Positions 16,017 to 19,122 of a stretch of 40,597 nucleotides of DNA are shown in pieces. The DNA is taken from contig JAUWBF010000026.1 in NCBI GenBank assembly GCA_030601755.1, forward strand, positions 1 to 40,597. Reading direction: 5' to 3'. A program made the position numbers and the translations under genes. The stretch is from Verrucomicrobiota bacterium. GTDB lineage: Bacteria; Verrucomicrobiota; Verrucomicrobiia; Opitutales; Opitutaceae. The notes below the pieces were generated by a model. The model saw only the letters and a program-made list of their open reading frames with translations. It ran no database searches and had not been told where the DNA came from. Numbering within the stretch: the first letter of the stretch is position 1; every line of letters begins with the position of its first letter.

Positions 16017-16322
16017 TCAGGACTCCCGTTCGACCAAGGCCAGCAGGCCGGGGAAACGGCGTTGCAACTCGGCGCGTCGCACCGAGGTCATGCATTTGGC
16101 CCCCTCCGGCCGCTTGGCGATGAGGCCGGCCTGAAACAACACGTCGAAGTGATGCGAACGCGTCGCCTTCGAAACATCCAGCGGGATGTCGCCGCAGGCC
16201 AGCTCACCGTCGGGCGCGGCCAGCAGCGTGCGCAGGATCGTCAACCGACAGGGCTCGGAGAGCGCCTGCATGACGGTGGCAAGTTCGACCTGCTTCAGAT
16301 CGGGTGGCGTGTAATCCTTCAT
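16017..16322 (-). CDS. ArsR-family winged-helix repressor
   Basis: The 101-residue protein is a compact winged helix-turn-helix of the ArsR/SmtB type. The pattern A-L-S-E-P-C-R-L-T-I-L-R-T-L-L is near 20-34, and the recognition-helix region D-V-S-K-A-T-R-S-H-H-F-D-V-L is near 49-62. Cys residues at 25, 43 and about 77 exist but no complete metal site is obvious, so it may sense an organic electrophile rather than a metal. It diverges from an aldo/keto reductase, a frequent layout for such regulators. Its own promoter contains a perfect inverted repeat in the spacer, indicating autorepression. ATG 16322 is the only sensible start. Confidence 0.9.
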   Translation of the reverse strand: MKDYTPPDLKQVELATVMQALSEPCRLTILRTLLAAPDGELACGDIPLDVSKATRSHHFDVLFQAGLIAKRPEGAKCMTSVRRAELQRRFPGLLALVERES

Positions 16323-16340: not shown

Positions 16341-16369
16341 AGAATAGTTCGAAAAAAATCGAACTGCAA
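16341..16369 (-). promoter_or_regulatory. arsR promoter with operator in the -35/-10 spacer
   Basis: On the minus strand TTGCAG (16369-16364) and TATTCT (16346-16341) are separated by exactly 17 bp. That spacer (16347-16363) holds almost all of the inverted repeat AGTTCGA-N6-TCGAACT (16346-16365). A bound repressor would block polymerase directly. Transcription would start about 12 bp before the ATG. Confidence 0.65.
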
Positions 16370-16396
16370 TTTGACGTTTTCCACGCTGCACAAACG

Positions 16397-16414
16397 GTTC
16401 GATGAAAGGCGAAC
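16397..16414. promoter_or_regulatory. Second GTTCG-N8-CGAAC operator
   Basis: GTTCG (16397-16401) and CGAAC (16410-16414) flank 8 bp, exactly the geometry of the first site (16347-16351 and 16360-16364). The two centres lie 50 bp apart, about five helical turns. This one lies just downstream of a TTGACG -35-like element (16371-16376) for the plus-strand genes, where a -10 box would be. Confidence 0.6.
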
Positions 16415-16473
16415 AATCCCGGGGCACATTGCCCGGGGGCGTTCGTCCGCAACTCACTTCAATCACACACGTC

Positions 16474-17505
16474 ATGGAATACAGATTATTGGGCGGTTCG
16501 GGTTTCAAGGTGCCGGTTTTGAGCCTCGGCACGGGCACGTTCGGCGGGGCTCCGGGTTTGTTCGAGGCGTTCGGCACCAGTGGAGTCGACGAGGCCACGC
16601 GCCTGGTCGACATCGCGCTGGAGGCGGGAGTCAACCTCTTCGACAGCGCCGACATTTATTCGCAGGGCCGCTCCGAGGAGATCCTGGGCAAGGCCATCGC
16701 CGGCCGTCGCGATCAGGTGCTCATATCGACCAAGGCGACCTTTCGCTTCGGCGAGGGGCCCAACAACGTCGGCTCCTCGCGCCACCACCTGATTCGTCAG
16801 GTCGAGGGCAGCCTGAAGCGCCTCGGCACCGACTACATCGACCTGTTTCAGCTGCACGGCTTCGACGCGCAGACGCCCGTCGAGGAAACGCTCTCGACGC
16901 TCAACGACTTGGTGACCGCGGGCAAGATCCGCTATCTCGGCGTGTCCAACTTCTCCGGCTGGCACCTCATGAAGTCGCTCGCCGTCTCCGACCGCTACGG
17001 CTGGTCGCGTTATGTCGCCCACCAAGCCTACTACTCGCTGATCGGGCGCAGCTACGAATGGGAACTCATGCCGCTCGGCCTCGATCAGAAGGTCGGTGCC
17101 ATGGTTTGGAGTCCGCTCGGCTGGGCGCGCCTCACCGGCAAATACCGTCGTGGCCAGCCCGTGCCGCAGGGAACCCGCCTCGAGTCGCAGGCCGCGGTCG
17201 ACGCCGGCCCGCCCGTCGATCTCGAATACCTGTATCAGGTGGTCGACGCCATCGACGAGGTCGCCGCCGAGACCGGCAAGACCGTGCCGCAGATCGCCAT
17301 CAACTGGCTGCTGCAACGCCCGACCGTCTCCAGCGTCATCATCGGCGCGCGCAATGAGGAACAACTGCGCCAAAACCTCGGCTCCGTCGGCTGGAACCTG
17401 ACGCCCGCGCAGGTCGCCAAGCTCGACAAGGCCAGCGAGACGACCCGTGCCTATCCGTATTTCCACCAGCTGGGATTCGCGGAGCGAAACCCGAAGCCGG
17501 TGTGA
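16474..17505 (+). CDS. Aldo/keto reductase
   Basis: A 343-residue NADPH-dependent oxidoreductase of the AKR superfamily, reducing aldehydes and ketones in the cytoplasm. The catalytic tetrad is visible as D57, Y62, K87 and H128, and the barrel pattern is complete. The late [12 protein letters not shown] motif is the family NADP-binding C-terminal region. It resembles the YajO/YghZ-like or Gfo-independent AKR groups. It diverges from the ArsR repressor and probably shares a transcript with the LLM monooxygenase 46 bp downstream. The substrate is not known. Confidence 0.94.
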
Positions 17506-17551: not shown

Positions 17552-18550
17552 TTGAACCGCCATCCGCCCGTTCCGCTCTCCGTGCTCGACCTCTCGCCGA
17601 TTCTGCCGGCGGGCGGGGCGGCCGACGCGCTGCGTCGCAGCGTCGAGCTGGTCGGCCACGCGGAGCGGCTGGGCTTCCGGCGTTACTGGGTGGCCGAGCA
17701 CCACAACATCCCGGGCGTGGCCAGCGCGGCGACCGCGGTGTTGATCGGACGGCTGGCCGCGGCGACCTCGACGATCCGCGTGGGCGCGGGCGGCATCATG
17801 CTGCCCAACCACGCGCCGCTCGCGGTCGCCGAGCAGTTCGGCACGCTGGAGGCGCTGTTCCCCGGACGCATCGACCTCGGCCTCGGCCGCGCGCCCGGCG
17901 GGGATCCGGCCACGGCGCGGGCGCTGCGCCGCACGCTGGGCACGCGCGGGGAGGACTTCCCGGAGCTGCTCGACGAACTGCGCGGCTTTTTCTGCGAGGC
18001 GGTCCCGGGTCAACCGGTGCGTGCCATCCCGGGCGAGGGACTGCGCGTGCCGATCTGGTTGCTCAGCTCGAGCGGATTCAGCGCGCGGCTCGCGGCGAGG
18101 CTGGGCCTGCCGTTCGGCTTTGCCGGACAATTCGCCCCGCAGGCCATGGAGGCGTCGTTCGCCTTATATCGTCGCGAGTTTGTGCCCTCGGCCGACTTGG
18201 CGGAACCGTATGCGTTGGCGGGCATCAACGTCATCGTCGCGCCGACCGACGACGAGGCGCGTTTTCTGGCGACCTCGCACCAGCAGTCGTTTCTCAACCT
18301 GATCCGTGGCCGGCCCGGTCCGTTGCCGCCGCCGGTCGAGAGCATGGACGGACTCTGGTCGCTGGACGAGGAGCGCATGGTCGGCGACATGCTGGCGGCC
18401 ACGGTCGTCGGCGGTCCGGAGACGGTGCGGCGCGGCCTGGTGTCGCTGCTGGAGCGCACCGGCGCGAACGAGCTGATGGCCAACGCGGCGATCCACGACC
18501 ACGCCGCCCGCGTGCGTTCCTACGCGTTGCTCGCGGAACTGTGGTCCTGA
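17552..18550 (+). CDS. Luciferase-like (LLM) flavin-dependent oxidoreductase
   Basis: A 332-residue protein of the bacterial luciferase-like superfamily, YhbW/MsnO8-like group, which uses reduced FMN to oxygenate or otherwise transform a substrate. The family start L-S-V-L-D-L-S-P-I, the Y-W-V-A-E-H-H-N block near 45, [11 protein letters not shown] and the [11 protein letters not shown] block are all present. No ATG fits, so TTG 17552 is taken as the start. The gene follows the aldo/keto reductase by 46 bp. It converges on an NAD(P)H:FMN reductase with 8 bp between stops, a plausible supplier of FMNH2. Confidence 0.92.
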
Positions 18551-18558
18551 TGCCGCGT

Positions 18559-19122
18559 TCAGGCGAATCGTCGCGCGGTGTCGACCAGCGCGGCGGCGAG
18601 GGCGCGCACGGATTTTTTGGCGCGTTCATCGGTCAGCGCACCGCTCGCGTCGAAGGCTTTGTGGGCACCGGGCAGGGTGGTCGTGCCGGGAACGACATGG
18701 CAGCCCAGCTTGAGCAGGAGCTGCTGCGCCATCTGCTGCGAGCGCATGCCGCCAAAGGCGCCCGGCGAGGCGGACAGCACCGCTGCGACCTTGCCCTCGA
18801 ACGGGTCCTCTTCGCCGCGCGTGCACCAGTCGAGGGTGTTTTTGAGCAGCGGGGTGATCATGCCGTTGTATTCCGGCGAGGCCACGAGCAGGGCCTGATG
18901 TTGTTTGATCAGACCGATGAGCTTGGCGGCGTTCTCCGGCAGGCCGCGGGCTTCCTCAAGGTCGCCGTGGTAGAGCGGCAGCTCGTGTTCGCCGAGATCG
19001 AGCACGGTGACCTCGCCACCGGCCTCGCGCACGGCGGCCACCGCGGCGTCGAGGAGCTTTTTGTTCAGGGATTCGCGGCGGATGCTGCCGCAGAAGGCGA
19101 GGATGCGAGGTGCGTTGGACAT
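18559..19122 (-). CDS. NAD(P)H-dependent FMN reductase
   Basis: The 187-residue flavodoxin-like protein has the FMN-binding loop G-S-I-R-R-E-S-L-N near 12-20 and the signature S-P-E-Y-N-G at 82-87. It belongs to the NADPH-dependent FMN reductase/ChrR-like family, which reduces FMN, quinones or azo compounds in the cytoplasm. ATG 19122 is used. Convergent placement with a flavin-dependent monooxygenase suggests they work together, but they do not share a transcript. Confidence 0.93.
   Translation of the reverse strand: MSNAPRILAFCGSIRRESLNKKLLDAAVAAVREAGGEVTVLDLGEHELPLYHGDLEEARGLPENAAKLIGLIKQHQALLVASPEYNGMITPLLKNTLDWCTRGEEDPFEGKVAAVLSASPGAFGGMRSQQMAQQLLLKLGCHVVPGTTTLPGAHKAFDASGALTDERAKKSVRALAAALVDTARRFA

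Follow-up and report, generated by a model that had tools for sequence, protein, structure and literature searches.

Two exact copies of the palindrome GTTCG-N8-CGAAC were found in the 151-bp gap between an arsR-type regulator gene and a divergently transcribed aldo-keto reductase (AKR) gene in the window, the whole 40,597-bp stretch of DNA analysed here (Table 1). The comparative sequence evidence makes it probable that they belong to a redox-responsive autorepressor resembling CyeR and RexT, with paired operators placed around the reductase promoter as a local on/off switch. A search of the literature found no study of this operator pair or of this group of regulators. As far as that search goes the pair is new in detail; it is ordinary in kind, as ArsR-type autorepressors beside reductases (CyeR, PyeR) are already known.

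In the proposed mechanism, both palindromes would be dimer-binding operators of the adjacent ArsR-type protein. The reductase-side (distal) site would cover the -10/start region of the reductase, and the arsR-side (proximal) site, ending 6 bp before the reductase -35, would lie within the arsR promoter region. Reduced ArsR on both sites would silence the reductase and limit its own synthesis; oxidants or electrophiles would modify Cys43, the equivalent of RexT Cys41, and the protein would leave the DNA, so that reductase and regulator would be co-produced until the reductase had cleared the stress. Counting against this reading are the poor -10 in the window, a palindrome gap of N8 where RexT has N15, the loss of the proximal site from three of 27 related loci, scores below the cut-offs for the ArsR models and the lack of enrichment of the motif when one mismatch is allowed.

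Table 1. Features of the regulator-reductase region, in coordinates of the window
Feature	Position	Strand	Comment
arsR-type regulator gene (101 aa; Cys25, Cys43, Cys77)	16020-16322	-	ATG at 16322; matched by HTH_20 and by five ArsR-type NCBIfam models, none at its curated cut-off
Proposed arsR promoter, TTGCAG-17-TATTCT	16341-16369	-	7 of 12 consensus bases; weak, not conserved
arsR-side (proximal) operator	16347-16364		GTTCGAAAAAAATCGAAC; exact GTTCG-N8-CGAAC
TTGACG, likely reductase -35	16371-16376	+	In 24/24 paired loci TTGAC starts 6-8 bp past the proximal operator
AACGGT, place of the reductase -10	16393-16398	+	16-bp gap; poor, 2 of 6 consensus bases
Reductase-side (distal) operator	16397-16414		GTTCGATGAAAGGCGAAC; exact GTTCG-N8-CGAAC
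Aldo-keto reductase, 343 aa, divergent partner	16474-17505	+	ATG at 16474; Aldo_ket_red E 1.1e-70
MsnO8-family luciferase-like oxidoreductase	17552-18550	+	Sequence-family matches

The putative operator pair in the window and its rarity

The two operators share the same geometry and are 50 bp apart, start to start, exactly as originally predicted. With its flanks the proximal operator reads AGTTCGA-N6-TCGAACT and its centre lies 33 bp 5' of the arsR start codon, while the distal operator sits where the -10 and start of the reductase gene would be expected.

That the palindromes arose by chance is the least credible of the explanations considered, and it was dropped. It draws on the behaviour of the motif with up to one mismatch, which was not enriched in the window (two matches versus 2.79 expected from shuffles) and showed no clear enrichment in the whole genome (76 matches versus 62 for the reversed pattern). 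Exact copies are rare: there are three in the 3.55-Mb genome, two of them in the 151-bp gap, and two of the reversed pattern, a count from which the chance of two exact copies falling in one such gap comes to approximately 4e-9. An exact pair with 25-40 bp between the sites was found in two of 372 genomes of the order, that of the window and G121, and in none with the reversed control. In both genomes the sites are 50 bp apart and adjoin orthologous arsR genes. The footprint in 27 related loci, described below, and the absence of the paired pattern from any other place in 387 genomes also stand against chance.

The latter search used a degenerate pair pattern built from the 27 loci, so that their recovery is by construction and only absence elsewhere is a test. 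The pattern occurred at one place in each of 15 of the 387 phylum genomes (reversed control, zero), and all 15 places adjoin an arsR homologue from the phylum profile search. It recovered 15 of the 17 subfamily loci of that profile search, the other two (L037 and L040) having no proximal site. Within the 387-genome sample, the putative operator pair is dedicated to this device, and pairs of the same form were found nowhere else.

A wide regulon was also considered and dropped on the whole-genome count of 76 one-mismatch sites against 62 for the reversed control. The third exact copy in the genome (locus L001, positions 1501-1518) is single and unpaired. The frames to either side of it are long, on the minus strand and, from their raw translations, seem unrelated to reductases; other open frames overlap the copy. 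The genome has a single Old Yellow Enzyme-type gene, and no GTTNG-N8-CNAAC was found in its 3,969-bp locus (L015).

Conservation of the sites in a regulator subfamily

Homologues of the regulator were found in nine of 141 relatives (E up to 1e-15) and, by profile search (E up to 1e-12), in at least 20 of 372 genomes of the order and at least 23 of 387 genomes of the phylum. The genome of the window is included in each count, the three genome sets overlap with one another and with those of the two pair searches above, and the order and phylum counts are lower bounds because 12-13 first-look candidates were scored per genome. Removal of duplicates left 36 regulator loci, including a Bosea homologue (L013). 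These comprised 27 subfamily loci scoring at least 120 bits and nine distant loci scoring 50-88 bits, the 120-bit cut having been chosen after the scores were seen, where they drop from 125 to 87. L009 and L012 duplicate L018 and L027 and were not counted again, L014 was left out as a partial match (residues 61-99), and none of L001-L003 and L015-L017 is a regulator locus of its own. Ten families of the phylum are represented among the 27 subfamily loci.

In calling sites, up to one mismatch was allowed and 170 bp of upstream sequence was covered; the mismatch limit partly fixes the base counts at the sites. On this basis the reductase-side site was present in all 27 subfamily loci and both sites in 24; the three loci without a proximal site (L027, L037 and L040) all keep the distal one. 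None of the nine distant loci had the motif in the 300 bp upstream of the regulator. Elsewhere in the same 27 loci only two sites were found in 82,914 bases, and 0.11 would be expected across all of the upstream regions. Among these picks, all 51 sites retain CGAAC and 49 have the T preceding it, with the other arm more variable. L027 scores 137 bits and has one site, yet is grouped with the distant loci in the tree (99/99); were it counted as distant, one of 10 distant loci would carry the motif.

Promoter elements and the spacing of the pair

The TTGACG that was predicted as a reductase promoter element ahead of the second site is supported by the relatives as a likely -35. On the reductase strand, TTGAC starts 6 bp after the arsR-side site in 14 paired loci, 7 bp after it in nine and 8 bp after it in one, which leaves the likely promoter of the reductase with an operator on each side. 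Of the unpaired loci, L040 has TTGAC and L027 and L037 do not. The distance from TTGACN to the reductase-side site is looser, at 19-26 bp in the 24 pairs. The -10 place is taken by TATGTT in five loci with an Old Yellow Enzyme (L005, L006, L008, L019 and L022); this hexamer matches four of six consensus bases, lies 16 bp beyond TTGACN and extends into the operator.

The spacing of the pair was 50 bp in nine loci, 51 bp in eight, 52 bp in two, 53 bp in two, 54 bp in one and 56 bp in two. At 10.5 bp per turn, 50 bp is 4.76 helical turns rather than the approximately five that had been proposed, and the range of 50-56 bp covers 4.76-5.33 turns, which is more than half a turn. A strict placing of both sites on the same side of the helix is not supported by this spread, with seven of the 24 pairs at 52-56 bp. 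Almost all of the drift lies between TTGAC and the distal site, which is the pattern that a distance set by promoter geometry would give.

A variant of the preferred reading, raised in the original prediction, in which touching dimers form a cooperative or looped complex that bends the intervening DNA and represses both promoters, is improbable on these data. The pair does stay within 50-56 bp wherever it occurs (24/27), with 17 of 24 at 50 or 51 bp. Set against this are the distances themselves, which span over half a turn, and the fixing of TTGAC to one site while the other drifts, which leaves the promoter to explain the spacing. The 101-aa regulator is, moreover, little more than a winged-helix fold, and 50 bp is short for a DNA loop. 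Looping as the cause of the spacing was dropped on the distances and the fixed TTGAC.

The arsR promoter is less clear. It had been proposed that the first site fills the 17-bp spacer of this promoter, and both elements are where they were said to be, on the minus strand (TATTCT at 16346-16341; TTGCAG at 16369-16364, with one base common to the first site). The match has no conserved counterpart: the best fits in the other 23 paired loci have 6-9 of 12 consensus bases at varying positions, and a promoter scan at 9/12 found none. In most loci the proximal site nevertheless falls within the arsR promoter region, its centre being 20-39 bp before the arsR start in 21 of the 24 pairs and 59-81 bp before it in three.

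A second, non-exclusive variant would have two independent one-site switches, the proximal serving arsR only and the distal the reductase only. We regard this as possible, if clearly the less likely course, since each site adjoins one gene and the three loci without a proximal site keep the distal one, while the proximal site is locked to the reductase TTGAC in 24/24 pairs and its centre ranges over 20-81 bp from the arsR start. The proximal site, being fixed to TTGAC and variable relative to the arsR start, seems to serve the reductase too. Operator-like conservation, pairing in 24/27 loci and TTGACG as a likely -35 make joint control of both divergent genes likely; the joint repression foreseen in the original prediction has good support as a prediction.

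The regulator protein

Clear E-values notwithstanding, the regulator did not reach the curated sequence cut-offs for ArsR/SmtB membership, scoring 24.1 bits with HTH_20 (cut-off 27) and 45.7 bits with HTH_metalloreg (cut-off 55; E 4.2e-12). The predicted model (mean pLDDT 89.3) has the ArsR winged-helix fold. The best Foldseek hits were to RexT (TM 0.86-0.89), followed by SrnR, HlyU, CadC, NolR and BigR, and RexT is also the nearest solved relative by sequence (E 1.1e-16). The likeness to the redox sensors RexT and CyeR formed no part of the original prediction, nor did the Old Yellow Enzyme-like gene that is the usual partner in the subfamily. A classic metal- or metalloid-responsive ArsR with the reductase as a bystander, a reading to which the sub-threshold HTH_metalloreg match lends something, is very improbable: the best solved relative and the best fold are both the redox-sensing RexT, Cys25 is found in only 17 of the 27 subfamily proteins, and the partner genes are Old Yellow Enzyme-like or AKR in all 27 (the L027 partner at only 31% identity).

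RexT, from Nostoc sp. PCC 7120, is described as switching through Cys40/Cys41, of which Cys41 is peroxidatic and touches wing His75 through its backbone; a change of Lys50 weakens DNA binding (PMC8960804). RexT uses Arg61 and Thr68 for peroxide. In the alignment, C43 of the window protein is opposite the second Cys of the RexT CC pair. The chain appears to be numbered two ahead of that description, which is consistent with the CC being Cys40-Cys41, and with this offset K52, F63, K70, C77 and T79 face RexT Lys50, Arg61, Thr68, His75 and Asn77. R26, C43, K52, H57 and H58 are invariant in the 27 subfamily proteins and C77 is kept in 25. A Cys at the RexT Cys41 position is thus present as C43, which is no marker of the subfamily because it is kept in all nine distant rows as well.

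No second disulfide Cys, whether vicinal or 7 residues away, was found in the window protein, where A36 and V50 occupy the latter positions; C77 is a candidate for this role instead. The window protein is also unusual in having F63, where 25 of 27 have R, and K70, where 22 of 27 have T. Among the 27, F63 is found in the window regulator alone, and K70 is common to one other row. These changes look like drift at the positions with which RexT deals with peroxide. Because F63 and K70 replace Arg61 and Thr68 and no Cys adjoins Cys43, the trigger may differ from that of RexT. A redox or electrophile trigger acting through Cys43 seems likely, and one specific to peroxide less likely. A bond between Cys43 and Cys77 is an attractive hypothesis.

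A fuller reading would be a phylum-wide two-operator clamp, in which two RexT-like dimers flank the reductase promoter, a Cys43-Cys77 disulfide is the switch, and the enzyme (Old Yellow Enzyme or AKR) varies while the pair stays. This fuller version is tentative and we think it rather unlikely as a whole. If true, it would be a third redox-switch wiring beside the RexT vicinal pair and that of CyeR, with Cys77 standing where RexT has the wing residue His75. The analysis in any case yields a sequence-level operator, a testable layout and a predicted target for the regulator group, together with an operator geometry and a cysteine arrangement for comparison with RexT and CyeR.

As far as the published description goes, the window regulator resembles RexT in the DNA-contact Arg and Lys, the peroxidatic Cys and a TTCG/CGAA palindrome; RexT differs in controlling thioredoxin, in its vicinal Cys pair, Arg61 and Thr68, and in its operator, ATTCG-N15-CGAAT (PMC8960804). 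CyeR is outlined in the same source as having a Cys equivalent to RexT Cys41 and as the regulator of an Old Yellow Enzyme gene (PMC8960804). A second Cys, 7 residues away, has been suggested for CyeR. On that outline CyeR is like the window regulator as an ArsR-type redox regulator with this Cys, and 23 of 27 relatives share its type of partner, whereas the window regulator has an AKR partner and no Cys 7 residues either side of Cys43. PyeR of Pseudomonas aeruginosa is described as an ArsR-family repressor of its own operon, pyeRM-xenB, which includes the reductase gene xenB and is raised by HOCl (PMC7950407). By that description it is unlike the window system in having one operon instead of divergent genes.

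Divergent partner genes

CyeR and cye1 of Corynebacterium glutamicum were reportedly described by Ehira in 2010. A module of that type, with an Old Yellow Enzyme under the regulator, was not found in the window, where the partner is the AKR. The window module would nonetheless work like the CyeR type, and most members of the subfamily have an Old Yellow Enzyme partner: 23 of the 27 loci have an Old Yellow Enzyme-like divergent gene (64-81% identical to the query, L006, except L027 at 31%) and four have an AKR. The AKR-linked loci are the window and L032, L036 and L038, where the gene is in the same place and 79-80% identical. The control region can therefore persist while the controlled enzyme differs. 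In the distant group, AKR partners were found in L029 and L043 (66-76% identical), and L041, L042 and L044 have an Old Yellow Enzyme followed by a 71-73% identical stretch of the luciferase-like gene.

In the regulator tree, where the row label 'OYE' is a default that also stands on L013, L030 and L045, in which no Old Yellow Enzyme was found, the four AKR-linked subfamily regulators branch near the base without being resolved as a clade. The 99/99 split sets these four apart only from the two AKR-linked regulators among the distant loci. The tree is thus compatible with a single origin of the AKR link without demonstrating one.

The MsnO8-type gene is possibly in the same operon as the AKR. 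Just past the AKR, at 17552-19122, this gene on the plus strand is followed by an NADPH-dependent FMN reductase-type gene on the minus strand, and the AKR region may be a redox/detoxification cluster. The AKR leader contains a strong predicted hairpin (window positions 16408-16447, plus strand; -24.6 kcal/mol, z -4.25), the 5' arm of which uses the right half of the distal operator. In the three other AKR-linked subfamily loci the gap is 112-118 bp, compared with 151 bp in the window, and by eye they are without the hairpin insert.

Distant regulators and homologues outside the phylum

A different palindrome, GTTC-N9-GAAC, was found upstream of arsR in five of the nine distant loci (L030, L041, L042, L043 and L044). 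Residue 57, H in all 27 subfamily proteins, is Q in five of nine distant ones and is possibly a specificity switch; in L043 it is L, and L045 has the Q but lacks this palindrome.

Of 141 plasmid records with a homologue, eight were opened. In three of them (L048, L049 and L051) one site, with no more than one mismatch, lies less than or equal to 60 bp from the matched start. By genus, the homologues with a single N8 motif near the regulator start are those of Caballeronia, Stutzerimonas and Nonomuraea. The Caballeronia and Stutzerimonas homologues adjoin an annotated NADH:flavin oxidoreductase. L050 and L052 have one site with two mismatches each. The putative N8 operator motif is wider than the phylum, while the 50-bp pair was not seen outside it among the eight plasmid records. 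In L047 (Pseudarthrobacter), beside an MFS gene, a one-mismatch site lies 151 bp from the matched start with a two-mismatch site 58 bp from that, possibly a wider operator pair. The remaining two records (L046 and L053, both Streptomyces plasmids) have no such site. In these, two 17-bp palindromes 26 bp apart were seen by eye between the regulator and a divergent MFS gene, and they look like another paired layout with a different spacing.
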